Source of the DNA: Babesia bovis T2Bo
Taxonomy: Eukaryota > Apicomplexa > Aconoidasida > Piroplasmida > Babesiidae
NCBI RefSeq assembly: GCF_000165395.2
Contig: NC_010575.1
Coordinates: forward strand, 1,659,001-1,723,000
DNA: 64,000 bases
Direction: 5' to 3'
Both the position numbers and the translations under genes were made by a program. Shown here one piece after another: positions 7,910 to 31,228 of the stretch (position 1 is the stretch's first letter; every line of letters starts with the position of its first letter). The notes under the pieces were generated by a model. The model was not told the DNA's origin and searched no databases. It worked only from the letters and a program-made list of their open reading frames with translations.

Positions 7910-10900
7910 TTACCCACCACCCCAACCCTTTGCTCCAGATAAAAACACTGTCCTTAGTGTTCTGTTGTCCTTTTTCACTTCTTTCCTACCAAAATACTCC
8001 ACCAGTTCCATTCCTTTGCGTCCCGTCATCACCTTATACCACATACATTGCCACTGGTGTTCACCACCCCGTAACCAGTGTGACCTCATATGTGTCCAGT
8101 CCAATGGCCATATGGCACCAAAGGCAAGGTAGAGTACCGCCATTAGCCAGGCTAACGTAAGAACAAAGATCCAGGGGAGCCGTATGTCGTATTGGAGTTG
8201 GCCGACCTGGGAGAGGAGGTTGGTGAGGGGGTGTTCTTTAGTGTCTTTCTGTTGGTCCTTCTCAGTGCTCTCTATTACTTTCTTCAGGCTCTCTAGGAAC
8301 TCGTGACAACGCTTCTTCCCACCCTTGTTATCTATACTATAATCTCCCTTCTCCTTGTTCTCCTGCTCGAACCCCTCCAGATTGAATGGGTTACCATAAC
8401 TGAACCCATGTCTATAGAGTACTGGTAGTACCCCGGTGCATGATACGATTGATTGGCATCCACATTGGCCACTGTTTCCTGTACTCTTCTGTCCGTGTTC
8501 TCCCTTTTTGCACTTATTGGGGTCACATTGTCCTTTGCAGCCACGGCATTCAATCTGCAGGAACTCACTGGTCAGTGACTTTAGTCCCCATTGAAGTGCA
8601 TCTGATAGATATAGTACCCATGAGAGGTATGTTCCACCGAAGGTGGCACTCACGGCTGTATAAAGCTCACCGGTTAGGGGGGAGAGGTACTCGGAGTCCT
8701 TGGTCAGTGTCGAGAGGGCGGATGGAGAGGTACCATTACTGGAATATGCACTGACAGTGCCCTTATCGCCCTTAATCTCTATGAGTGCATTACCGACAGT
8801 CTCTCTGTAGTCTTTCCCGCCCATTACCGTTTGGATCCACTCTATCTGCTTTACCTCATCTCGTAACCCAGAGGCACACCAGCCGCAAACGTAGTCATCA
8901 TCTCCTTTCTTAGACGGATCGCCTGTGTGATTACACTTTATTCCTTCTCGCCCATTCTTGTTCATTCCACTTTCCTTCTCTCCTACACCACCCCTAAAGA
9001 ACCCAAAGACATCACCCAGTACCTGTGGTGTTGTAGCACTGAGTGCTGCAGTGACTCTCACTAGTGTATAAACACAAGACTGCATCATGTTCTCGTTACT
9101 AAAGAAGTAGAGGATGCCATAAAGGCGTTGGCCGGTACAGTCAGTGGTGCTGCCCTTGTAGAAGGAATTTCTAAATCCCATTGGCAGTGGGCAGCACTGG
9201 CCGGAACCACCACAGTGTCCTAGGTGGGATGCTGCAGGTGGGTACTCATCCGAGGAGGGAGTACTGCCAGCTTTACTCGCTTCCCACTTTTCTAGTAATT
9301 CCATGGTAGTGTTACAACTAAAACCTGGTAACCTATCCTCTAGGAATGCCTGGAGGGGGGAGGGAAAGCCGTCCATGTATTGTTGGTGACATGTTGGACA
9401 GGTCTTCTTCTCTCCCTGCCGGCCACACTTGTTTATGTGGTCATTACAGGGTGGGCACTTGGGAGAGTTGCAAATGTCTTTGAGCTTGTCGATGGCATCG
9501 TTTAACGCCTTTTCGTGGCCATTCATCTCTTCCTTTATCTTCTCCTTGACTCCCTCCTTCAATGTTGTCAGCACCTCTAGTACCTTATGAATAACCTCAC
9601 TTATCCTGTCCTTGGCACTACTGTAATCCTTCCTCCACTTTTGTGCTTCACTAGTTATCTGCTGTAATGACCCAGCATGACTACCATTCGCTAGTGTATC
9701 TAGTGCTCCACCACCACCATTCTTCGTCAGTGCATCTAGTTTATTCTTAGCCTCCGTTAGTTTCCCAGTCAGCCCACCATTCACCTTCACCGCCTTTTCT
9801 AGTCCCGTCCTAGCCTTCTCTAGTTCCTTCTTAGCCTTCCCTAGTGCCACCTTCACCCCCTCTATCGCTTTATTCTCAGCCTTCTTTTCCAATACCTCCT
9901 GGGCATTACCCAATTGTACCACTACCTCACCAATCTTCTCCAATAGTGTTTTCAAAGATCCTGACAGTGTTCCTGATGTTCCATAATACAACCTTTTCAA
10001 CTCGTTTTCTACCCCCACCAACCCCTTCCTCAACTTCTCCACCCTACATTTCCTATCATGTTCCATGGGGTTACACCCCAGGCACATCCAGCTAATTACC
10101 CCCTTAGACTCCACATCCTTGCCATACCTACACTCACGCCATTTACCTCCACAAGCAACCTTCACCGCACATTGCTTCCTAAGGAAATAGAGTTGATAGA
10201 ATAGAGCCCTAATGTAGTGAACCACCTGGTTGTATGCTTGTATAGACACTGTGGGATAGGTGAAGTTGCACTCAGTGTTAGCGTATAAGGAGTGGATGGC
10301 AGGAGTACTGCTGTCAGTGCTGTGTAGTCCACCCTGGATACCTATGAGGACCAATGGGCAGTACTGGGTCACTGCTTGGAAGTGGGCAAACAGGTTGTAT
10401 TCATCAACTGTAATAGGAGCCCAACGACCTGTTTGGTAGAACGAAAGCTGTTTTTTGCCGTCGACGTCTGGTGCTTTCTTCTTCAATACTTCCTTGGCAT
10501 ACTCTAGCATATACTTGTAGGCCTTACTATAGGGCAATGCACTTAGCCAGTAGAGGATCTCCCGGATGGTACGGGGAGTCCTTGGAGTACTCTCACTATT
10601 CCTTTTCTGTAACCCAGTAAAGTAGGCACAAGATAGAATATAGAGCTTAAAAATGGCACCGTTTTTATGCTGGTTAATTCCCTGTGCGGTACCGTTGTCC
10701 TTAAAGACATCAGCTTGATCAGTGTTGAATGAATCCCTATGTGCAGTATGTACAAAACCGGCATAATTCATACCGTAAGGACTTCTCGCTGTATTACCAT
10801 TAGTGTCACTGACACCATCACCAAGGCCACTAGGCTCCAGGAATCCCAAGAAAAACATATCCCTAAATCCATCCCATATGACCTGATCTAATCTATTTTT

Positions 10901-12164
10901 CGGCCCATGGTTATTCAACATTGTCTTAGGAAACCCTAGGGCCTGTAGCCATTGGGATAGGGTACCATCATCTAGACCACTACCATCCAGGATGTGATTG
11001 TTCCAGTATGGACTACCCTTGGTCCACTTTCCTGTCCAATACATATAAGTAAGTCCACTCCAAATGAGACATACTGACCCTAGGAGTATCCGGGCACAGT
11101 GGTGACGGCGTTGGGAGGGAGTCTTACTACCACCCCGTTCCACTAGATCTGTCCATGTGGAGCTTATACGATAATCTGATCCATCGTATATTGATATGAA
11201 ATTCATTTCTCCATATGCAGACTGATAACTGTCATGAAATGTAGGGCGTCCAAGCTTTTTCGTGTCGTCATTCTTGTCCTCAGTGCAACAGATACACTTG
11301 GCATCCTGACATCCACACTGCTTCCCCTTACAACAACACTTGCAGCATTTGCCTGCTAGAGCGCATTTACACTCATTTCCAGCACTACAGCCCTCTTCAT
11401 CATCAGTATCACACTGACAGCCCTGCTTCTTCGCCTCCTCATCAGTGCCACTACCCTTACACTTTGTACACCCCCTGCCCAGTTGTACCCAATCGACGCT
11501 CGGGATCACTACATATTTCATACACCCACAATCACCACACTTGTTCTCCGACTCTATATCCTTTAGATACTTGCACTCGCCATTTTGGCCATGATGTTCC
11601 TTATTACCCTTCTTGCACTCATTCTTGCCCTCCCAACACTTCTCTATCTTACTCCACCCAACGAGTGCACTGAGTACCTGTGCCAGTTGGTCTATATAGG
11701 TCCGGACCACGGAGGTACCACCTAGTCCCTGGACTAGGGAGAATAGGTCGTTGAGACGACTGTCAACGTCAGCTTTAGTGGCACCACTGTTGGAATTTTC
11801 AGCGCCATTCTTAACATCACCCTCATAGCCTATAATGTAGCTGAACTGGTATACTACTGTCTACTTACCATGGTACTCCAGTTGTACTGACTGCAGTAGG
11901 TCAGTCACTGCCGCCGCCAGGCCACATATACATTCTGTACAATAATGATTTCCATAGCACTAAGGCGCGCCACTGTAAAGGACACTGTCAGGGAGCATCA
12001 ATAGGGCGCGCATAACACAGTAGTGTCTACAGTAACGTACCTCCATCACCCAGCTTCTTACCATCCTTACCAGTTACCCTCAGGACCCAGTCAATGGCCT
12101 CCTTCAGGTTGGTGGGAGCCTCTGTTAGTGACGCCTTCGGCGTGAAAGTGCTATTCACGGCCAT
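7910..12164 (-). CDS. ves1alpha: VESA1 alpha subunit (ves1-alpha), full length with transmembrane segment
   Basis: Three exons on the minus strand: 12041-12164, 11869-11934 and 7910-11829, giving 1369 residues; both introns are phase 1. Exon 1 starts MAVNSTFTPK and carries the conserved NLKEAIDWVLRVTGKDG block. The protein then shows a cysteine/lysine-rich domain (~residues 155-245, with CCKCCCKGKQCGC), a conserved aromatic block (LIWSGLTYMYWTGKW), predicted coiled coils rich in Lys/Glu/Leu (~660-860) and a second Cys-rich region. It ends with one hydrophobic anchor (~1283-1308, beginning WIFVLTLAWLMAV) and a 61-residue tail. VESA1 is the two-subunit ligand exported by B. bovis to the red-cell surface for cytoadhesion and antigenic variation. 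The gene shares a 335 bp intergenic promoter with the ves1-beta gene. Whether this copy is expressed cannot be told from sequence. Confidence 0.92.
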
Positions 12165-12297
12165 TGTCAGTGCCTTTAGGAGTACTCAGCAGTACTCGCA
12201 GTGGTGAGGAAGTGGTCTGGCTATCGGGGTGGAATCCTATATATACTGAGCGCGCCCGTAGATTGGTGGCGCGCATACTATTCTATGGGATTCCACC
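11873..12297. repeat. 425 bp direct repeat spanning ves1-alpha 5' end and promoter (copy 1)
   Basis: Same orientation as 23451-23875 with a constant offset of 11,578. The only difference I found is 12227 (G) versus 23805 (T). It covers exon 2, intron 1, exon 1 and half of the intergenic promoter. Confidence 0.85.
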
Positions 12298-17045: not shown

Positions 17046-18405
17046 GGTGTTAAGGGTAAGAGTATATGCTGTAGTAGTACGTTTTTGTGACCACTTAATG
17101 AGTATATAGTGATTATACAGTGTTAACAGCTCGTCATTATCCCTGGTTAATCGACACTTTCACTCTACAAGTCTAGACAGTATTTGCATGGAACAAGAGT
17201 ACTACAGGTCTACACAGTACCTATATACAATGTCCCCGCACAAAGGACTGTTTAGTGGGGGCCCTATATATGTTGGAGTTACCCGGGTGGGGTTTTTGGC
17301 ATAGTGGGGTAACCCCAATGATGGGGCACTACCTAGTGACTTGAAAAGTAGGTTTGGCGCTTGATATACTCTAATCTATTCTCATCACAGTAGATAATCC
17401 AGCGATCTAGATCTAACCAATTCACCTTCAGGACTCCTGCAGTAATTCCTGTGGATGTCAATGGAGATTTTCCTAACCCATTGATTGGGGACTGTAGTTA
17501 GTTCCGGGTTATGTGGAAGTCGTTTCACTGTGGCCATGTAACGTGAATAGCACGAACGTCATGGGATGGATAACACCATATATTGTGTCTTACTGTAGGC
17601 CACAGTAGTACTGATATGACATATGACACTCAGTATCCCAATGATAATAGTGAACGCCATGTTGTGCTTGTATCAATGGTGGTGTCTTGTATGGTATCTT
17701 CACGCCGTTCCTGGTCACTGGTAGTAGTCATATGATGGGACCCTGTACTACCGGGTACTGTCTCCTGGAGAGCGGTAGTCACATTAGCAGTGACATCATA
17801 GGTCATCTGGGATAGACACAATCAGAGCATCAGTGATACAGTGCCATGTTAAAGGAAGGGATATATCTACAGATTATTGGGTGTGCCACTGTCATGTAGC
17901 TTGGACGTCTAGGACTGCTGAAGTACCTGATAGAGGTAGTGATGTATAGTGTAATGTACTGTCTAGAGGACTTCATATTGTAGTACTATCACTGGGTATT
18001 ACAGTGGGCCAGTGGTCTATAACAACGTCACTTTCACGGGACATTATGGATACCCTGGTTAGTATGCTGTGCTATACTAAGCCATTACCGGGGAACTACA
18101 AAGTAGTATATATATGATAATGACCAGTGTTAATAATGCAGCATTATAGAGAGTACATGGACGTACTGGCTGGTAGTGTTAGTGAGGCTAGTATAGGTTA
18201 AAGTAGTGTAGAATAATAGTGTATAGATGTAGCGCTGTTCTAATTTATTCTGTGGAATATGCGGTACTGTATTCACCTACAGATGTATATGTATATGTAC
18301 TTGGATATAATAGTACATATGCACCAATGTGGTCTATTTCATAAGTTTAAGTAATATGTAATTACGATAATATTGTTTTTATCTTGCTATTTCAAGATTG
18401 CTTAG

Positions 18406-18827
18406 TTATGAATAGAAAAAATATGAACGTCGACGCCTATCCCCCTGCTCGTCTTCACTCAACAAGAAGACATTCCTGACGTCTTGTTCCACTTCGGTCT
18501 CTATTGCCTCATTACAGTCATATGGCACACACAAGGAGATAACAAATGGCAACGTGACAAGAAGAATCTGTTTAAGGGCTTTGGTAACAGATACCACTCT
18601 ACATCGTACTTGGGGAGACCTGTTTCACTGTGTTTTTGAGTGTCAATTTTCGTCGGTTCGGATACGTCATGAGATTTAGTGGCAGATTTCTCATTCTTAC
18701 CGAAGAATCTACTTAAGAACGATTCCTTCTTGGGTTGCTCCGGGGCTATATCTGTTGAGGTAGCCGTAGCGGAAAACCCAAATGCCACAACTATAGAGAG
18801 CTTCCATAACATGTTAAGAGCTACCAT
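18406..18827 (-). pseudogene. smORF-like gene, frameshifted copy
   Basis: Read on the minus strand from ATG at 18827, the first ~84 residues equal the intact gene at 28801 (signal-peptide-like start MVALNMLWKLSIVVAFGFS, then the KKESFLSRFFGK stretch). After WYLLPKP the two diverge. Between shared flanks this copy has 51 bases where the other has 55, so the frame shifts and a stop follows at 18501. The old frame can be traced on to 18406 (VPYDCNEAIETEVEQDV, then an Arg-rich end). It has only one of the two C-terminal repeats present in the other copy. It may be a pseudogene, or a short secreted product that uses the new frame. It lies in the left arm of the inverted repeat. Confidence 0.6.
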
Positions 18828-20145
18828 ATTTTGTGGAGATGGGTCAAGAGTGAGATTCTCAGGTGTTACACATTTTGTTGCCGTTAATCCCCCCAGCTAT
18901 AGCACAAGTGCAATTAACTTGATGGTTGCTCTTCAGTGCAGTTCTATAAGGTGCTTGGTTGTAGATATCTATGTGATGTAATAATATTGTGACTGTGTCA
19001 CTGTCAGACAGTGATCAGGTCACTATTAATACAGGTGCTCTAGAGAAAAATACTGGCCAAATACTCCTTGAGCTAGACATTAACAACAAGAATGTAATTG
19101 TTACGATATATGACATGAGTGTCACCATCTGTACAACAACAATCACGTGATAGACAAAATGCTACCTCACCAAGTGATACAGTGTGCTTTTGACCATGAC
19201 ATACTGTGATTCCATGTGCCAGTACGGCGTCATAGATGCTTTTGTTTCGTTACTCTCCATTATGAAAACAGATTCCATAATGAGTCCGAGATGAATTATA
19301 TGTATATCTATGTTGCATAACGTTGCCAACAACGGTATAATAGGGCATTATCCTATGAGCAATGATGCCACAAAGACGACTTATGCTGTAGTGATGAGTG
19401 ATCTAGAGATGCCATAATGCATGGTAATATCATGGTGCTTAATAGAGAAGGTTGTTAACTACAGCTAGCACTCATGTTAAAAAAACAACATTCCATATTA
19501 CATTAGAGCATAGGTTACTATGTCACTGTTAGGAGTTGTATATCTAAAAAGGGAGTTGTTATGGTTACTTGGTACGTCTATGTATAGTATAGTAATCATG
19601 TCATAAGAACTGACAATGACCATGTGGTTTCTAGTAAAAATTATATATTGCCCGTCTTATAACCATTACTATTATCGCGGGAAGTCATCTATGTATAACA
19701 CTACAATGAGAGATTGAAATCATCTATCAACTAACGATAAACGAGAATCCCGTGCCATGGCTCTTAAGGAGTAATGCAGTAATAAAGAGTACAGCCTAAA
19801 CATTAACCGTATATAGCTTATATATATGTGCGTCTAGGATGCTTTATACTGTAGTACATTATTTTGTCGATGCGGTGAACCAACTACGTAACTCCATGAC
19901 AATGCTTCTTCCCACCCTTGTCATCTATACTATAATCTCCTTCATCCTTCTTCTCCTGCTGGTACCCCTCCAGATTGAATGGGTTACCGTAGCTAAAGCC
20001 ATGTCTGTACAACACCGGTAGTACCCCGGTACACGATACGATTGATTGGCATCCACACTGTCCACTTCCCTGTCCGTGTTCTCCCTTCTTGCACTTATTG
20101 GGGTCACACTGTCCCTTACAGCCCCGGCATTCAATCTGTTGGAAT
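18577..20145. repeat. Left arm of 1,569 bp inverted repeat
   Basis: Reverse complement of 27483-29051. The two arms have equal length, so no net indel. In the stretches I compared base by base the only difference was two adjacent bases near 18893/28735. Each arm spans the 3' end of a truncated ves1-alpha gene, ~1.05 kb of non-coding DNA (18828-19883 here) and the 5' half of a smORF gene. Confidence 0.85.
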
Positions 20146-23100
20146 TCACTATAGAGTGACTGTAATCCACCTTCAAGGGCATCTGATAGGTATAGTACCC
20201 ATGAGAGGTATGTTCTACCGAAGGTGGCACTTACTGCTGTATAGAGTTCACCGGTTAGGGGGGATACGTAGTGGTTACCGTCAGTGAGTGTTGAGAGGTT
20301 ACTAGTGGTGGCACCGGCACTGGAATATGGAACGGCACTACCAGTGCCCTTGTCTCCCTTAATACCTATTAGTGCTGCGCCGACTTTATCCCGATACGGC
20401 GCATCCCCTGTTTTTGGAATCCAGTCTATCTTCTTTACCTCTTCCCTTAACCCAGAGGCACACCAGCCGCAAAAGTATTTCTCCTTGTTCTCCTCATAAG
20501 ATCCACTTGGATTTCCATTGTGTTCACATGGTACGTCCTTGTCTTGTTCTCCCTTTGGTGGCTTTCCCTTTTCCTTCTCTCCTACACCTCCTCTAAAGAA
20601 CCCGAATACATCACCCAGTACCTGCGGTGTCGTGGCACTGAGTGCTGCTGTGACCCTCACTAGTGTATAGACACACGACTGCATCATGTTCTCGTTACTG
20701 AAGAAGTAGAGGATGCCATAAAGGCGTTGGCCAGTCATATCACTGATGCTGCCACTATAGAATTGACCTCTAAAACCCATGGGCAAGGGGCAGCATTGAC
20801 CTGAGCCATTACAGTGTCCTAGGTGGGATGAGGCCAGTGGGTAGTCTGGTTGTTCCTTCTCCTGGTTCACCACTGCACTACAACTAAAACCCGGCAAGCG
20901 ATCTTCGAGGAATGCCTGTAGAGGTGATGGTGTGCCGTCCATGTATTGTTGGTGGCATTTGTCACAGTAACTGGACACTGGCTTTTGGCCACACTTGCTG
21001 GAGTGTGATTCACATGGCGGGCACTTGGGAGAGGTGCAGATTGAAATGAGGTCTTTGACGGCTTTGTGAAAACCTTTTTCGTGGCCATTCAAATTTGTAT
21101 TTTCATCCACATTTGACTGTTCCTTCTCCAGAACTTCTTTCAACTCTTCCTCTAGGGCTTTCTTCATTAGATTCAATACCTCCCGTATCTTATGGATAGC
21201 ACTACTCAGCGCATTCTTACCCTGATCGAAATCATTACTATTTGCCGCCCCTAGTTTCCCGTCTAACTCCCCTAGTATTCCACCACCATTCGTTAGCTCC
21301 CCTAGTTTCACATCCAGCCCATCCATGCCATCCAGCCCTTTCTTCACCGCCTCCTCTAGTTCCTTCCCATCCAGCCCATTCTTAGCCGTCCCTAGTGCCC
21401 TCTTCACCTTCTCTATCACACCCTTATCCTTCCCTTCCAATGCCTCCTGGGCATTACCTAATTGTACCACTACTTCACCAATCTTCTCCAGTAGATTTTT
21501 GGCCGTTTCTATGTGCTCTACCCCGTTTGACGCTGATGTCCCCCTGATCACCCCCACCAACTCCCCCTTTACTTTATCCACCCTCCATTTCCTATCATGT
21601 TCCATGGGGTCACACCCCAGGCACATCCAGCTAACTACATCCCTCCCAAGCACTCCACTACCATACCTACACTCACGCCATTTACCTCCTAGGGCTACCT
21701 TCACTGCACATTGCTTCCTAAGGAAATACAACTGGTAGAATAGAGCCCTAATGTAATGTACCACCTGGTTGTATGCTTGGATGGACACAGTGGGATAGGT
21801 GAATCTACAGGCTGTGTTGGCGTATAAGGCATGGATAGGTGGTTCTTTAGTGGTGTCAGTGCCTTTAAGTCCACCCTGGATACCTATGAGGACCAATGGG
21901 CAATACTGAGTCACTGCTTGGAAGTGAGCAAACAGGTTGAATTCATGTACTGTAATGGGTGCTGTGCGGCCTGTCTGGTAGAACGAAAGCTGTTTTTTGT
22001 CCTCGAAATCTGGTGCTACCTTTTCCAATATTCCTTTCGAGTGCGTCAGTATCTTTGGATATGCCGGACTATAGGGCAATGCACTGAGCCAGTAGAGGAT
22101 CTCACGGATGGTCTTGGGAGTTTTATTTTCCGCCTTAGGCGGACCCTTCTTCTGTAATCCAGTAAAGTAAGCGCATGATAGAATGTAGAGCTTGTACAAG
22201 GCGCCACATTTGTGGATGTTTTCCTCAGTTATGCTGGTGGTGCCATTATTGAAGACAATAGCTTTACTGCAAAATGCACCCTTGTCCATGGTATGTATAT
22301 ATCCAGCATAGTTCATACCAGCTGGTTGTCTGAATGTATTAGCATGGTTGTCATGGCCATGTACAGCAAAGTTATGCCAATCACCAGTATTCGGAAATCC
22401 CAAATATAACTTACCCATAATCCCATCCCATATAATAGCATCCCATCTATTTCCAGGACCATGGTCGTTCATCATTGCCTTAGGAAACCCTAGGGCCTGA
22501 AGCCATTGTGACAGTGTACCATCATCTAGACCACTGCCATCCAGGATGTGATTGTTCCATCGGGGGCTGCTGGAATGGTACTTTCCAGTCCAATACATAT
22601 AGGTAATGCCACTCCAGATGAGACATACTGAGCCAAGTAATGTCTGGGCACATTGGTGACGTCTATCAGAGGCAGTAGTGTCATAGCTATTGTCTCCGGG
22701 AGGAATATCTATTAAATCTTTCCAATATGGTTTGACGTCTACCCTCTTGGATTGCGTGAATGACTCCCTCATAAACACCGTTCTACTAGGGTACGAAGAC
22801 ATGTAGCTATCCCTGTTACACTCATCACGGCCAACAACCCCGTCCTCGATTATACAACTACACTCCCTTTTACAGTTCCCACATCTACCATTACAACAAC
22901 ACTTGCAGCATTTACCTTCTTTAGCACATTTACACTCCTCGCCAGTACTACAGTCACTACCACCACCAGGACTACACTTACACCCATCTCTACTACCACT
23001 ACACCTTGTACACCCCCTGCCCAGGTGATGTCCATTCTTGTCATCATCCGCCACGGCCACGTCCCATTTCATACACCCACACGTGCCACACTTGTTCTCA

Positions 23101-23742
23101 TGCTTTACATCCTGTAGATACGTGCAGCCATCTTTAGTGCCATGTTGATTGTTATTGCTACTACCACCGCAGCCGTCCCAACACGTCTCTATCTTACTCC
23201 ACCCAACGAGTGCACTGAGTACCTGTGCCAACTGGTCTACATATGTCCGGACCACTGCAGTACCACCTAGTCCCTGTACCAGAGAGAATAGCTCATTGAG
23301 GCACTCTGTGACTCTCGCTTTTGGGGGGCCCTTCTTCTGTTCACTGTCAGTCTCCTTAGTATCTCCCTCATAACCTATAGGGACCCATGAGGTACTGTAT
23401 ACCGGTGGTAGTACTATACAGTACTACTAGACTACTCAGTACTTACCATAGTACTCCAGTTGTACTGACTGCAGTAGGTCAGTCACTGCCGCCGCCAGGC
23501 CACATATACATTCTGTACAATAATGATTTCCATAGCACTAAGGCGCGCCACTGTAAAGGACACTGTCAGGGAGCATCAATAGGGCGCGCATAACACAGTA
23601 GTGTCTACAGTAACGTACCTCCATCACCCAGCTTCTTACCATCCTTACCAGTTACCCTCAGGACCCAGTCAATGGCCTCCTTCAGGTTGGTGGGAGCCTC
23701 TGTTAGTGACGCCTTCGGCGTGAAAGTGCTATTCACGGCCAT
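19884..23742 (-). CDS. ves1alpha: VESA1 alpha subunit (ves1-alpha), truncated before the membrane anchor
   Basis: Exons 23619-23742, 23447-23512, 19884-23374; 1226 residues; same three-exon, phase-1 plan as the alpha gene at 7910. Exon 1, intron 1 and exon 2 are almost base-identical to that gene. The cysteine/lysine-rich domain (CCKCCCNGRCGNC), the YMYWTGKYHSSSP block, the Lys/Glu-rich coiled coil (visibly different from the other copies) and the SIVSCTGVLPVLYRHG block are all present. The reading frame ends at GGKKHCHGVT, about 130 residues short of the alpha gene at 7910, and so lacks the hydrophobic anchor and tail. The same ending occurs in the gene at 23943. It may be a non-functional donor for segmental conversion, or encode a product that is not membrane anchored. 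Confidence 0.85.
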
Positions 23743-23875
23743 TGTCAGTGCCTTTAGGAGTACTCAGCAGTACTCGCAGTGGTGAGGAAGTGGTCTGGCT
23801 ATCGTGGTGGAATCCTATATATACTGAGCGCGCCCGTAGATTGGTGGCGCGCATACTATTCTATGGGATTCCACC
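23451..23875. repeat. 425 bp direct repeat spanning ves1-alpha 5' end and promoter (copy 2)
   Basis: Partner of 11873-12297. Near identity across coding, intronic and promoter DNA implies recent gene conversion or duplication rather than selection on protein alone. Confidence 0.85.
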
Positions 23876-23942
23876 CCGATACATTGACCTTGACTACCAC
23901 TGACTCTCACTGGACACTCTCGAAACAAGGGGTGGTGACATA
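23743..23942. promoter_or_regulatory. Bidirectional ves promoter, short form
   Basis: 200 bp between two divergent ves1-alpha genes. It matches the long promoter at 12165-12499 except for an internal 135 bp loss between two copies of GGATTCCACC. The inner palindrome arms are therefore gone and only the outer pair remains, one arm with a mismatch at 23805. Confidence 0.75.
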
Positions 23943-26900
23943 ATGGCAGCAGCAGCGGCTCAGAATACCTGGAAGCCCTATGACAAGCTAACAGATCCTC
24001 CCACCAACCTGAAGGAGGCCATTGACTGGGTCGTGAGGGTAACTGGTAAGGATGGTAAGAAGCTGGGTGATGGAGGTACGTTACTGTAGACATATGGATA
24101 TAAGGGCGCCATATAAGTAATAGTGGGCGCCTTTGGCGCCCATTAGTATATTGACTCACCCCCGTACAGAATGCATATGTGGCCTGGCGGCGGCAGTGAC
24201 TGACCTACTGCAGTCAGTACAACTGGAGTACAATGGTAAGTACCCAGTACTAGAGTAGTACTGTATAGTACTACCACCGGTATACAGTACCTCATGGTGT
24301 CCTATAGGCTATCAAGGTGATGTTAAGAATGGTACTACTGACAGCGGTGCCAACAATGGCGCCACCGAACAGCAAGTCATAGACCACCTCAATGGACTTT
24401 TCTCCCTAGTCCAAGGACTAGGTGGTACTGCAGTGGTCCGGACTTATATAGACCAGCTGGCACAGGTACTCAGTGCACTCGTTGGGTGGAGTAAGATAGA
24501 GACGTGTGATAAGAGCAATGGCAAGTGTGGTGGCGATGAAAAACCACACGGCCAAGAGAGCTGCAAGTATCTCAAGGATGTAACGCGGGATGATAGGTCA
24601 TGTGACACATGTGGGTGTATGAAATGGGACGTGGCCGTGGCGGATGATGACAAGAATGGACATCACCTGGGCAGGGGGTGTACAAGGTGTAGTGGTGGTG
24701 GAAGTGATTGTACGTGTAAAGATGGTGAAGATCAGTGTGCTGTTGGCACAGAGTGTAAGTGCGCTAAAGCAGGCAAATGCTGCAAGTGTTATTGTAAGGA
24801 TGAGTGCAAGGCGAAGTGTAAGGAAGAGTGTAGATGTGATAAGCACAGCTACATTATGCGATACAGATCTACGTATACAATGGAACTGATTGATGCAAAA
24901 TACTGGACTGAGATTAAACCAATAGAAAAGCCACCTACGTGGGCGGATCTCCTGGATAGGGGTAATGGTAAGACCCCCTCCAAACGCCGTCACCAATGCG
25001 CCCGCATCCTCCTAGGGTCAGTATGTCTCATCTGGAGTGGCATTACCTATATGTATTGGACTGGAAAGTACCATTCCAGCAGCCCCCGCTGGAACAATCA
25101 CATCCTGGACGGTAGTGGTCTAGATGATGGTACCCTATCACAGTGGCTACAGGCCCTAGGGTTTCCTAAGGCAATGTTGAACAATAGTGGGCCACAGAAT
25201 AGACTTGATAAGGTCATATGGGATGGACTTAATGATAAGTTGCTTCTAGGGTTTGCAGTGCCTAGTGGCCTTAATACTAGTGGTGTTGCCAATGACCATA
25301 ATGGTAATACAGCCAGAAATCCGTTCAATATGAACTATGCCGGTTTTGTGCATACTGCACATAGGGATTCATTCAATGAACAAGCTATTGTGTTTAAAAA
25401 TGACGGCTCTAGTACTACTGACACTAATCAACACAAGATCGGTGCCATTTTCAAGCTTTATATTCTATCATGTGCATATTTTACTGGATTACAGAAAAAG
25501 AGTAGTACCCAAAGCACTGCCCCTAGGAATCCCAAGACCATCCGGGATATCCTATACTGGCTAAGTGCATTGCCCTATAGCCCGGCATACCCCAAGATAT
25601 TGATACATGGTAAGGATAGACTAAAAGAAGTGCTCAAGAAACCCGGAGAAACTGACTCTACCAATGGAGAGACACAACTCAAGTTCTATCAAACAGGTCT
25701 TAAACATCCCATTACCGTTGATGAATACAACCTATTTGCCCACTTCCAAGCAGTGACCCAGTATTGTCCACTGGTACTCATAGGTATCCAGGGTGGTCTC
25801 AAAGGCACTGACAAAACACTAGAACCTGCCATTCACGCCCTCTACGCCAACACGGAATGCAACTTCACATATCCAGGAGTACCCATCCAAGCATACAACC
25901 AGGTGGTACACTACATTAGGGCTCTATTCTACCAGTTGTATTTCCTTAGGAAGCAATGTGCCGTGAAGGTCACTTGTGGAGGCAAATGGCGTGAGTGTAG
26001 GTATGGTAAGGATGTGGTGTCCAAGGGGGTCATTAGCTGGATGTGCCTGGGGTGTAGCCCCATGGAACATGATAGGAAATGGAGGGTGGGGAAAGTGGGT
26101 GACTTACTGAAGGGGGTGAAGGAGAGTGATCCTATAGTGAAGAATCTAAAGGCACTATTGGAGAAGATTGGTGAAGTGGTGGTACAATTGGGTAATGCCC
26201 AGGAGGCATTGGAAGGGAAGAAGATAGATGGGATCAATGCGGTGAAGAAGGCATTAGAGGGGGTGAAGAAGGCACTAGAGAGTGCTAAGGGGGCACTAGA
26301 GACGGAGTTGGGGAAGAAGGGTGGGCTGGATGGGAAACTAGGGGAGGCTAAGGCGAAACTAGATGCACTGACGAATGGTGGTAGTGGTAGTGGAGGACTA
26401 CTAGGGGAGGTAGTAGGACATGGTGGACTAGAGAAGGCAGAGAAAGATGAGTATGATCCCGGTAAGAACAAAATAAGTGCCGCTATCAATGGAGTGCGCA
26501 ATGTATTGGAGGCATTGAAGAAAGAACTAGAAAATGATAATTCACATCTATACGGCAGCATACCCTATTGGATCACGCAAAAATGCCTTCAATCTATAGA
26601 TCAGATCAAAGACATATGCAACTCTCCCAAGTGCCCAGGATGCACAAAACACAGCAACAAGTGCGGCCAACCATCCAATCCCACTGTCTGTCCGGCATGT
26701 CTCCAACCCACTACCACTGGTGTCCCCTCCCCCCTCCAGGCATTCCTCGAGGATCGGTTACCAGGTTTTAGTTGTCAAGAGGTACCTGAGACCGACAAGC
26801 CAGAGTACCCACTGGCCTCATCCCACTTGGGACACTGCGGTGGCTCCGGCCAGTGCTGCCCCTTGCCAATGGGTTTTAGAGGTCAGTTCCAAAAAGGTGT

Positions 26901-27744
26901 CACCAATACTGGCCAACGCCTTTATGGCATCCTCTACTTCTTCAGTAACGAAAACATGATGCAGTCGTGTGTCTATACACTGGTGAGAGTTACTGCAGCA
27001 CTCAGTGCCACGACACCGCAGGTATTGGGTGATGTATTCGGGTTCTTCAGGGGTGGTGTAGGAAATCCAGTACAGAAGGAGGGGGAGGTCAGCAAGAACT
27101 GCGATCACCAGAATGACCCCAAAACGTCGACAGGCAATGACAAGTACTTTTGTGGCTGGTGTGCCTCTGGGTTAAGGGATGAGGTAAAGAAGATAGAGTG
27201 GATACCAAAGGGGTCGGACGCAGGAGGTCAATACATGGACAAAGTCGGTAAAGCACTAAGAGATATTAAGGGCAGTGACAGCACTGCTACTACCACTGCA
27301 TATTCCAGCACTGCTACTGCCAATACCTCCCTCTCACGACTCACTAAGAACTGCCAGTACCTCTCCCCCCTAACAGGTGAGCTTTATACCGCAGTGAGTG
27401 CCACATTCGGTGGAACATACCTCTCATGGGTACTATATCTATCAGATGCACTTCATTCAGGACTAGAGTCACTATATGAGGCATTCCAACAGATTGAATG
27501 CCGGGGCTGTAAGGGACAGTGTGACCCCAACAAGTGCAAGAAGGGAGAACACGGACAGGGAAGTGGACAGTGTGGATGCCAATCAATCGTATCGTGTACC
27601 GGGGTACTACCGGTGTTGTACAGACATGGCTTTAGCTACGGTAACCCATTCAATCTGGAGGGGTACCAGCAGGAGAAGAAGGATGAAGGAGATTATAGTA
27701 TAGATGACAAGGGTGGGAAGAAGCATTGTCATGGAGTTACGTAG
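23943..27744 (+). CDS. ves1alpha: VESA1 alpha subunit (ves1-alpha), truncated before the membrane anchor
   Basis: Exons 23943-24075, 24170-24235, 24308-27744; 1211 residues. Exon 1 starts with a run of alanines (MAAAAAQNTW), unlike the other two alpha genes, then rejoins NLKEAIDWVVRVTGKDG. It keeps the cysteine/lysine-rich domain (~residues 150-250), the YMYWTGKYHSSSP block, a coiled coil rich in GLDGKLGEAK-type repeats and the ALSATTPQVLGDVFGFFRGG block. It ends at GGKKHCHGVT like the gene at 19884, without anchor or tail, because both 3' ends lie in the inverted repeat. Intron 1 carries the palindrome GGGCGCC-TTT-GGCGCCC (24125-24141). Confidence 0.85.
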
Positions 27745-29051
27745 TTGGTTCACCGCATCGACAAAATAATGTACTACAGTATAAAGCATCCTAGACGCAC
27801 ATATATATAAGCTATATACGGTTAATGTTTAGGCTGTACTCTTTATTACTGCATTACTCCTTAAGAGCCATGGCACGGGATTCTCGTTTATCGTTAGTTG
27901 ATAGATGATTTCAATCTCTCATTGTAGTGTTATACATAGATGACTTCCCGCGATAATAGTAATGGTTATAAGACGGGCAATATATAATTTTTACTAGAAA
28001 CCACATGGTCATTGTCAGTTCTTATGACATGATTACTATACTATACATAGACGTACCAAGTAACCATAACAACTCCCTTTTTAGATATACAACTCCTAAC
28101 AGTGACATAGTAACCTATGCTCTAATGTAATATGGAATGTTGTTTTTTTAACATGAGTGCTAGCTGTAGTTAACAACCTTCTCTATTAAGCACCATGATA
28201 TTACCATGCATTATGGCATCTCTAGATCACTCATCACTACAGCATAAGTCGTCTTTGTGGCATCATTGCTCATAGGATAATGCCCTATTATACCGTTGTT
28301 GGCAACGTTATGCAACATAGATATACATATAATTCATCTCGGACTCATTATGGAATCTGTTTTCATAATGGAGAGTAACGAAACAAAAGCATCTATGACG
28401 CCGTACTGGCACATGGAATCACAGTATGTCATGGTCAAAAGCACACTGTATCACTTGGTGAGGTAGCATTTTGTCTATCACGTGATTGTTGTTGTACAGA
28501 TGGTGACACTCATGTCATATATCGTAACAATTACATTCTTGTTGTTAATGTCTAGCTCAAGGAGTATTTGGCCAGTATTTTTCTCTAGAGCACCTGTATT
28601 AATAGTGACCTGATCACTGTCTGACAGTGACACAGTCACAATATTATTACATCACATAGATATCTACAACCAAGCACCTTATAGAACTGCACTGAAGAGC
28701 AACCATCAAGTTAATTGCACTTGTGCTATAGCTATGGGGATTAACGGCAACAAAATGTGTAACACCTGAGAATCTCACTCTTGACCCATCTCCACAAAAT
28801 ATGGTAGCTCTTAACATGTTATGGAAGCTCTCTATAGTTGTGGCATTTGGGTTTTCCGCTACGGCTACCTCAACAGATATAGCCCCGGAGCAACCCAAGA
28901 AGGAATCGTTCTTAAGTAGATTCTTCGGTAAGAATGAGAAATCTGCCACTAAATCTCATGACGTATCCGAACCGACGAAAATTGACACTCAAAAACACAG
29001 TGAAACAGGTCTCCCCAAGTACGATGTAGAGTGGTATCTGTTACCAAAGCC
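27483..29051. repeat. Right arm of 1,569 bp inverted repeat
   Basis: Mirror of 18577-20145. It includes the 3' end of the ves1-alpha gene, non-coding DNA at 27745-28800 and the first ~84 codons of the smORF gene. No gene is seen in 27745-28800; ORFs there are mirrored chance frames. Confidence 0.85.
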
Positions 29052-29361
29052 TGAAAATAGAGCTGCACTACGTAGTTTTTTGCCGTGGTATTTGTCCCTT
29101 TCTGTGCCATATGACTGTAATGAGGCAATAGAGACCGAAGTTGAACAAGACATTAGGGAGTATTTCTTATGGAGTGACTTTGAATGGTATATGCTGCCCG
29201 AGCCGGGAAGCAGAACTACGCTTCTTAATTTGTTACCACCTGATTTGGCCTCTATGATCCCAGAAGACTGTAACGAACCAATAGAGTTCGCAGTAGAAAA
29301 ACAAATTTGGAAGTATTTATCATCGAGTGAGCATGAGCAGCAGGCAATGCGTCCATCTTGA
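28801..29361 (+). CDS. smORF-like secreted protein with an internal duplication
   Basis: 186 residues. It starts with a signal-peptide-like segment (LWKLSIVVAFGFSATATS). The second half is two copies of a ~50-residue unit. Unit 1 begins VEWYLLPKPENRAAL and ends EVEQDIREYFL; unit 2 begins FEWYMLPEPGSRTTL and ends AVEKQIWKYL. Each carries a [YE]DCNE[AP]IE core. Small secreted genes called smORFs are known to sit beside ves1 genes in B. bovis; position, size and leader fit, but I assign the family from context. Their function is unknown. The first 84 codons lie in the inverted repeat and are identical to the damaged copy at 18406-18827. Confidence 0.75.
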   Translation: MVALNMLWKLSIVVAFGFSATATSTDIAPEQPKKESFLSRFFGKNEKSATKSHDVSEPTKIDTQKHSETGLPKYDVEWYLLPKPENRAALRSFLPWYLSLSVPYDCNEAIETEVEQDIREYFLWSDFEWYMLPEPGSRTTLLNLLPPDLASMIPEDCNEPIEFAVEKQIWKYLSSSEHEQQAMRPS

Positions 29362-30438
29362 TATTATTGTTCCAGGTAAATTATAAATCTTGGCGCAACT
29401 TGATGAAAACGAGGTTATAATAAAGTAATAGTACTTCGGCATCGGTGGTAGACCACAGCGCCACATAATGATACATATGGACTAGTATGTCATGGCTAAT
29501 AGTGCACGGTTGGCCTTTTTTGGTAGTAGTGCCCAATGTTGTCAAGGACTGTGCACTGATGGGTTACTAATAATGCTTATTAGCAGTGCCTCTAAAGTGC
29601 CGGATCCTAACATAACACGTCTAAAATGCAACGCATTCGTCAGAGTCAATATTATATAGATATGTATCATTGTCAGTGGATTATAGGATTACTGTTGGCT
29701 GGTGGGTCCTTACGTCACTATAAAGTCAACACTAGAAAGGCATCGCTTCGTTAGGCCCCGTATTGATAGTAATGCATACCCTAGACGCCCTTTGGGGGAC
29801 ACACGTGATACTGCATAGGTAGTGATATGCCAGCATCCAATATGTTAAGACAATGTTCTCCGTTCTAAAAGGCAGATAAGATGACAGAAGACACACTATT
29901 CAACCAGAGAAATGAGCCGTGTTATATGATGTAAGTCAGACAGAAGAATACATATTACTCTATAGACAAGTGGCCGAAGTAGTACGCCAAATTGTTGCAC
30001 CTGAGCTGGATTTCAAAGATTTTTTCAACAAGTAAGTTGGTTGGATGAGAATTCAACAAGTACATAGAATCTATGAGAACATAGTGGAGTTTTTGAACTG
30101 GACATCATGACATTTTGATCGTTATTACACCACTTTAGTATACGCTGATGTTTGACAGTCCCTGTAAATCACACAAGGATATCCTGTTCTCATACACAAA
30201 CTTTTATCGGGATATCACTGTCATTATACAACAATAAGGCCTTTTCACAGTTGAATGGATACCCAATAGTGAGAGTCCTGCCTACAGTTGTGTTATAACA
30301 AATCAACAACTTAAAATTATTATTCGTTTATCAATTATCCACTATGGGTGGTCCAATGTTTAATGCTTGATGCTGATATGAACCTTGTTACTTGACCTTA
30401 ACCAGTTCTATGTCACAATGTGTTGAACCTTTGGATCC
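29362..30438. other. Non-coding right boundary of the ves island
   Basis: About 1.08 kb between the smORF gene and the first core gene on the right. There is no credible ORF, RNA gene or repeat. Short ves-like words (GTAGTAGTGCCC) continue to about 29600 and then fade. Confidence 0.5.
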
Positions 30439-31228
30439 TTACCCAGTGATTTCAGTCATTTCAGTTTGAATCTGCATGGCAAACCTTGCAAACTTGGTGT
30501 TCATACCTAATTCAGCCTGGTGTCTGGTGATGGCCCTATCTATTTGCATAGACGTGTATCCAAACTTCTTTTGTACTTTTGCCGCAATGATAGCTTGAAC
30601 CGCAATGCTTGCTGCATTACTGTTCAGATTGGGTTGCATGGTCAAGGGCTGCTGTGTGGTTTGGATATCTTGCAATTCCTTGAGCATAAACTCGTATACG
30701 TTCACGATCTCGTCTGGCACGATGTCATGTTCATCTTCTGGTGTTTCTCCAGTAGGGAGGTTTATCATTGCCATGATGTGTGAACGTACGGTCGGGTCGT
30801 TTTGGTATCTTTCTACCAGGTAATCGAGGTCGAAAAGAGTAAGTCCTCTGGCTTTCAACGGGTCATTAGGTACATCCTTGACTACACGATGATACACATC
30901 TAGCATTGTATCCTTAAAATCACTACCCATGATCTCACTAACTAAAGTTTGCAGCAACGACTTGGCCTTATCTTGATTGGCTGCGATTTTGGCTAAGAGG
31001 TCGATCACATCAGTCTTGGTCATCTTCTCAACCACTTTGCTAGCTGCTGCCATGTCAGAAGGGTCGTATTCCTTCTTGAACAAATCATTTTCATCCTCTT
31101 GGTTATCATCCTTAAGGAAGTAGTAAACCAGCCAGGCAGCAGCTGCTGCGGCACCTGTTTGATTGGTAAATCATAAAATATAGACACTTACCGGTCATTG
31201 CCAACGCCTTTGTGTAATTGTAGCCCAT
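30439..31228 (-). CDS. Membrane-anchored protein of unknown function
   Basis: Two exons, 31192-31228 and 30439-31154, with a 37 bp phase-1 intron; 250 residues. The short first exon supplies MGYNYTKALAMTG; the joined text has one N-terminal hydrophobic segment rich in Ala (to WLVYYFL, residues ~8-30), then an acidic stretch (KDDNQEDEND). The rest is helical and soluble-looking, ending in amphipathic Gln-rich helices. I read this as a signal-anchored protein with its bulk on one side of a membrane. I recognise no domain. Without the small exon the protein would lose its anchor, so annotations starting at the internal Met (31083) would be wrong. Confidence 0.7.

Follow-up and report, generated by a model that had tools for sequence, protein, structure and literature searches.

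Near-identical inverted ends of a head-to-head ves1-alpha gene pair in Babesia bovis: a probable 1.57-kb gene-conversion tract running from ves1-alpha coding sequence through intergenic DNA into a smorf gene

Arm-to-arm gene conversion takes place in the large palindromes of the mammalian Y chromosome. In Babesia bovis, segmental gene conversion of ves1 genes was reportedly described by Al-Khedery and Allred in 2006, and a divergent ves pair with a quasi-palindromic bidirectional promoter is said to have been described by Wang et al. in 2012. Divergent alpha/beta and alpha/alpha pairs around such promoters also feature in the part of Mack et al. (2020; PMC7485966) drawn on here, where the segmental gene conversion (SGC) tracts of wild-type ves1-alpha transcripts have a mean length of 109 +/- 39 bp and were called on merged amplicon reads averaging 326-335 bp; because of that read length, a tract of 1.57 kb could not show whole in those data. 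In the excerpts of Jackson et al. (2014; PMC4066756) used here, ves1 "transposition" between loci by conversion is considered frequent on the basis of incongruent strain phylogenies, and smorf genes show less evidence of recombination than ves1. The relation of DNA secondary structure to var recombination is the subject of PMC3936766, as its consulted portion presents it. In the literature searched, we found no account of an inverted repeat of Babesia ves1 genes, and within the available part of PMC9047050, on B. bovis ves1, the sole match to "inverted" was a figure symbol; a first description is not claimed.

Here we analyzed a window of 64,000 nucleotides of the B. bovis T2Bo genome (C3:1659001-1723000, window positions being used below wherever no contig is named) and compared it with the genome, 8,234,832 bases in eight contigs. 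We take C3, of 2.59 Mb, to be chromosome 3. The genes of interest are gene A, on the minus strand (19884-23742; T2Bo XP_001611900.1, 1226 aa, with introns near its 5' end), and gene B, on the plus strand (23943-27744; matching the 1211-aa T2Bo protein P0052). Their assignment to ves1-alpha in a preliminary description made from the sequence alone is borne out by the Pfam domain VESA1_N (PF12785; 667 bits in gene A and 665.6 bits in gene B) and by matches to named T2Bo ves1-alpha proteins, with all 11 peptides sampled from gene A found in P0034 and all 11 from gene B in P0052. The start codons at 23742 (-) and 23943 (+) enclose a 200-bp centre (23743-23942), the size given before, which is presumed to be a bidirectional promoter; the two genes thus form a divergent, head-to-head pair with a short promoter region in common. 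Their inverted 5' ends (23424-23706 and 23988-24258) are 83% alike and the main reading frames show 63% identity (762/1218), with the last 86 residues of the two frames being the same. Each gene is followed by a smorf gene in the same orientation, on the left a 108-codon frame (18501-18827, -; PF23503 match at C3:1677564-1677827) and on the right a frame of 186 codons (28801-29361, +). Both belong to smorf by the PF23503 domain, for which the named representatives are SmORF proteins of B. bovis, and by similarity to such proteins, in keeping with the smORF DNA that had been placed in the repeat.

Alignment of 17500-21500 with the reverse complement of 26000-30500 gave a left arm at 18577-20145 (-) and a right arm at 27483-29051 (+), each of exactly 1,569 bp and thus as first delimited, the right arm being the reverse complement of the left with three mismatched bases. 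Between them lies a spacer of 7,337 bp (20146-27482), consisting of the remainder of genes A and B and the promoter, and the whole is a large imperfect palindrome, as had been proposed, with inverted arms of very high identity (1566/1569 bases, no gaps; exact runs of 316, 1,202, and 48 bases). The preliminary description had noticed one two-base difference, which is indeed present in the intergenic part (18893-18894 / 28735-28734), but it had overlooked a single-base mismatch in coding sequence (20097 / 27531), which is silent since both ves1-alpha C-termini read alike. In each arm, the final 262 bp of a ves1-alpha gene, stop codon included, are followed by 1,056 bp of intergenic sequence and then by the opening 251 bp of a smorf gene, so that both edges of the tract sit within coding sequence. 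Of the intergenic bases, 1,054/1,056 agree between the arms, as against 78% for the cassette at C2:244712-246251, which is the only other locus covering nearly the whole arm among the matches listed. Because the identity spans these intergenic bases, selection on protein is excluded as its cause, an argument already made in the preliminary description that the full alignment upholds. No structured RNA was detected in 18000-30000 at Rfam gathering thresholds.

The near-identity stops abruptly at both edges, whereas paralogy continues beyond them. Inward, in paralogous ves1-alpha coding sequence, seven consecutive bins of 100 alignment columns hold 76, 62, 75, 44, 94, 81, and 71 identical positions. 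Outward, agreement is patchy, with 91 of the first 150 positions of the right-arm flank alike and one block of 47/50 at 29099-29148; within the limits set by self-BLAST, residual paralogy links the outer flanks (18455-18576 on the left and 29052-29177 on the right), and the alignment of the arms stops at 18455/29177, where similarity ends. The left smorf departs from the shared sequence at codon 84, which is the tract edge, and stops early (108 codons versus 186), whereas the right smorf tracks related smorf sequences past the edge. Where genes A and B align elsewhere, self-BLAST gives 76-81% identical DNA. The arms are therefore an abrupt-edged stretch of near-identity in otherwise diverged paralogues, and their identity is far beyond chance, judged both against these values and against the exact-run distribution of the family.

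That distribution was obtained from 45 loci, namely 42 out of 61 retrieved together with three parts of the window, which are of unequal length (3.2-10 kb) and include a few smorf or beta sequences rather than ves1-alpha tails, so that they are a sample and not a full census of ves1-alpha tails. Left out were the telomere ends (L001-L008), overlapping loci (L009, L010, L017, and L045), small contigs (L048-L050), L061, and three loci fetched around or without ves1-alpha tails (L046, L047, and L051). Over the 990 pairs of these ves/smorf loci, the longest exact run had a median of 47 bp and a 99th percentile of 231 bp, and runs of at least 1,000 bp occurred in four pairs (1500, 1202, 1100, and 1071), the run of 1202 being that of the present arms. 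The 1,500-bp run is shared in direct orientation by the ves1-alpha tails at C1:846k and C1:1003k; that of 1,100 bp, also direct, joins the tails at C1:896k and C1:914k and extends some 960 bp past the stop codon; and that of 1,071 bp is inverted and joins C1:527k with C1:934k, the C1:527k tail belonging to one of the control head-to-head pairs considered below. These three tracts may be longer than stated, because their near-identity reaches the end of the locus compared (L026/L027, L024/L037, and L019/L034).

Both members lay on the same contig in all four pairs with runs of at least 1,000 bp, against 215/990 pairs overall (label permutation p 0.0018), and in 4/5 pairs with runs of at least 500 bp, 4/7 at 300 bp or more, 5/12 at 200 bp or more, and 23/45 at 100 bp or more. 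The fifth pair with a run of at least 500 bp joins C4 and C5, which are probably the two contigs of which T2Bo chromosome 4 consists according to the consulted part of PMC12064010. Since the threshold was picked post hoc and some of the loci are other than ves1-alpha genes, the same-contig enrichment serves as a lead and falls short of a result. We only tentatively raise the possibility, which we hold to be rather doubtful, of a long-tract mode (1-1.6 kb or more) besides short segmental conversion, operating chiefly among ves loci that share a chromosome, in either orientation. If true, such a mode would carry intergenic DNA and smorf genes along, so that the tails of the antigen genes would be homogenized while the rest of the antigens stayed diverse.

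Our preferred reading, with a probability of roughly 0.72, is that the arms represent one long tract of recent gene conversion, present in two copies. On this view, genes A and B would be old, diverged ves1-alpha paralogues lying head to head, each with its co-oriented smorf, and one tail (ves1-alpha end, intergenic DNA, and smorf start) would recently have overwritten the other as a single piece of about 1.57 kb. The pathway would be homology-directed repair in which one paralogous copy serves as template for another, inverted one on that chromosome, probably by conversion rather than by a double exchange, and the expected outcome would be a common VESA1a C-terminus and a common smorf promoter, with the smorf broken at the left edge. 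Because paralogy persists past both edges at lower identity, the arms are likely to have been homologous beforehand, with one stretch recently made alike, and the abrupt drop in identity with paralogy continuing outside leads us to judge, from sequence, that conversion within an inverted pair of paralogues that already existed fits better than a fresh inverted duplication. This reading also draws on the agreement of the intergenic bases, on the lack of a third near-identical copy among the matches listed, and on the exact runs of 1,000 bp or more elsewhere in the family. What counts against conversion is that the published tract mean is about 14-fold shorter than the present tract, although the reads behind that mean were too short to span one of this size.

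The preliminary description had left a choice between conversion of the two genes and an assembly collapse; conversion remains the best explanation, but collapse is not quite the right artefact, because the assembly contains both copies, each next to flanks of its own, and a simple collapse would delete one of them. The concern is rather that the true arms differ more than they appear to, the consensus of one having been built partly from reads of the other. A long repeat within a family of genes whose assembly is difficult invites such an effect, as does the occurrence of the further long exact tracts likewise in ves loci, yet the arms retain distinct flanks and three base differences, and the right outer junction is matched in protein by P0001, a record without a T2Bo contig; overall, we regard an assembly effect as unlikely. 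A recent, longer inverted duplication could also leave 1,569 bp of near-identity if its flanks had since been overwritten by short conversions from ves/smorf loci. Overwriting does occur at this locus, given that the inner flank of gene B is nearly identical to a sequence at C4:418k (248/250 at 27132-27381; exact run of 272 bp). However, the outer flank of gene B differs by about 6% from its closest listed relative (141/150), as compared with 0.2% between the arms, and so looks older than the homogenization, and the rest of the two genes, at the frame and DNA identities given above, is not near-identical, which makes a duplication of this kind quite improbable. As for crossing-over between the arms, which would have flipped the 7.3-kb interior with conversion possibly as a by-product, near-identical inverted arms would allow it, and a flip would presumably not alter the ves proteins, since the tails that change places read alike. 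On the other hand, crossover is apparently a rare outcome in B. bovis (PMC7485966, in the part consulted), and chromosome 3 is described as clearly collinear between T2Bo and Nanopore-assembled clones in the excerpted text of PMC12064010, though a 7-kb change may escape notice at that scale; we give this possibility hardly any weight.

The inverted layout and the near-identity are both real, and they could together reflect palindrome-driven concerted evolution, in which pairing of the arms or cruciforms would keep the ends alike in the style of the Y chromosome; the preliminary description had likewise supposed that the palindrome could, by forming cruciforms, promote conversion between the two genes. 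Head-to-head pairs were chosen by eye as neighbouring strong VESA1_N hits in minus/plus order less than 2 kb apart, with 94 of the 186 candidates scored, and eight alpha/alpha pairs were found, the present one included. In each of the seven control pairs, the two tails were compared with each other over 3.2-3.7 kb. None of the seven has near-identical arms: their longest tail alignments are 78-83% identical, shorter pieces attain at most 88% (429 bp) and 93% (106 bp), and their longest exact runs are 95, 101, 77, 57, 47, 47, and 55 bp. Moreover, the equally long tracts described above join the tails of genes on C1 that are not partners and lie 18-407 kb apart, and a spacer of 7,337 bp is long for cruciform extrusion. 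The palindrome is thus not needed for tracts of this kind, since sister pairs lack such arms and non-partners share equal tracts; a palindrome or cruciform as driver was set aside on these grounds, and we consider it very improbable that arm pairing maintains the identity. The palindrome is probably the setting of the event and not its cause.

Were the arms to derive from conversion, copying from the right (gene B) to the left (gene A) would be the more likely direction, and the sequence at the outer edge argues for it. A related smorf at C1:782k agrees with the right copy to a similar degree inside and outside the tract (133/150 and 141/150; Fisher p 0.15), whereas its agreement with the left copy falls from 133/150 inside to 89/150 outside (p 7e-9). 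P0001 (UniProt S6BG53), the B. bovis smorf protein of the contig-less record mentioned above, which heads a cluster of 4, is identical to the right smorf over codons 1-135, a match that spans the tract edge at codon 84. Because both sequences track the right smorf across the edge, the outer junction appears old on the right and new on the left. Deeper in the tract, the right smorf drifts from C1:782k (70/100 at 28799-28898 and <60% upstream), and P0001 differs from it at codons 136-186, which means that P0001 may represent another locus. Its source is probably the Texas-strain full-length cDNA set of PMC4148916, the main text of which, in the portion consulted, makes no mention of smorf. The inner edge gives a mixed signal on direction: 9 loci are nearer to gene B and 7 nearer to gene A among the 16 shown of 27 compared, a count in which L031 and L045 are one place entered twice, and the inner flank of gene B is itself a mosaic that includes the match to C4:418k. 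Copying from A to B, which summary identities had indicated, was dropped after base-level profiles.

Further repeats were observed around the pair. A 448-bp direct repeat, 98.7% identical, links 11850-12297 with 23428-23875 and spans the promoter and 5' end of gene A and of the next ves1-alpha gene (7910-11860, -); gene A thus has its 5' end in common with one neighbour and its 3' end in common with another. In gene B, the segment matching the ves1-alpha gene near C4:418k is a short tract that lies some 100 bp further inward than the long tract. These two observations indicate that the pair is a patchwork drawn from several partners, in which the 1.57-kb tract is the longest found. Elsewhere in the genome, the ves promoter regions at C1:671735-672452 and C1:795559-796276 had identical match scores to the centre of the window, and the equality of these scores suggests another near-identical pair about 124 kb apart. 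For the arms themselves, no third copy above 91% was present among the 41 matches listed, for which 40 of 131 candidates were scored; given that sampling, and the gap in T2Bo chromosome 4 noted in the consulted part of PMC12064010, a donor that has been lost or is unassembled is possible.

Together, a base-resolved tract of 1.57 kb and three other exact runs of more than 1 kb in the loci sampled suggest that conversion also remodels the ends of genes, the promoters of smorf genes, and the DNA between genes. The locus provides a concrete case for asking whether long tracts need Rad51 while short ones do not, and a useful negative comes with it, in that inverted pairing alone left the tails of seven other pairs unhomogenized.

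With regard to known systems, the locus resembles the mammalian Y palindromes in having inverted arms of very high identity, but differs from them in that its sister pairs in B. bovis lack this feature and non-partner genes show tracts just as long. The likeness to the divergent alpha/alpha pairs already known in this parasite lies in the head-to-head ves1-alpha genes, the 200-bp centre, and the inverted 5' ends that are 83% alike, whereas near-identical outer arms are unmentioned in the consulted part of PMC7485966. With the transposition of Jackson et al. (2014; PMC4066756, as excerpted), it has in common the replacement of ves1 sequence at fixed loci, the difference being that the present tract, edges included, is resolved at the level of single bases and takes the start of a smorf gene with it. 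The closest parallel is the SGC of B. bovis ves1 genes, in so far as its description was consulted: both appear to involve copying between ves1-alpha paralogues with homology around the tract, but the tract is 1,569 bp long here instead of the published ~109 bp, and it exits the gene, crossing the 1,056 bp of intergenic DNA into smorf. The finding therefore fits the known picture of ves1 conversion, as far as these sources present it, while extending both the length of the tracts and the territory that they cover.
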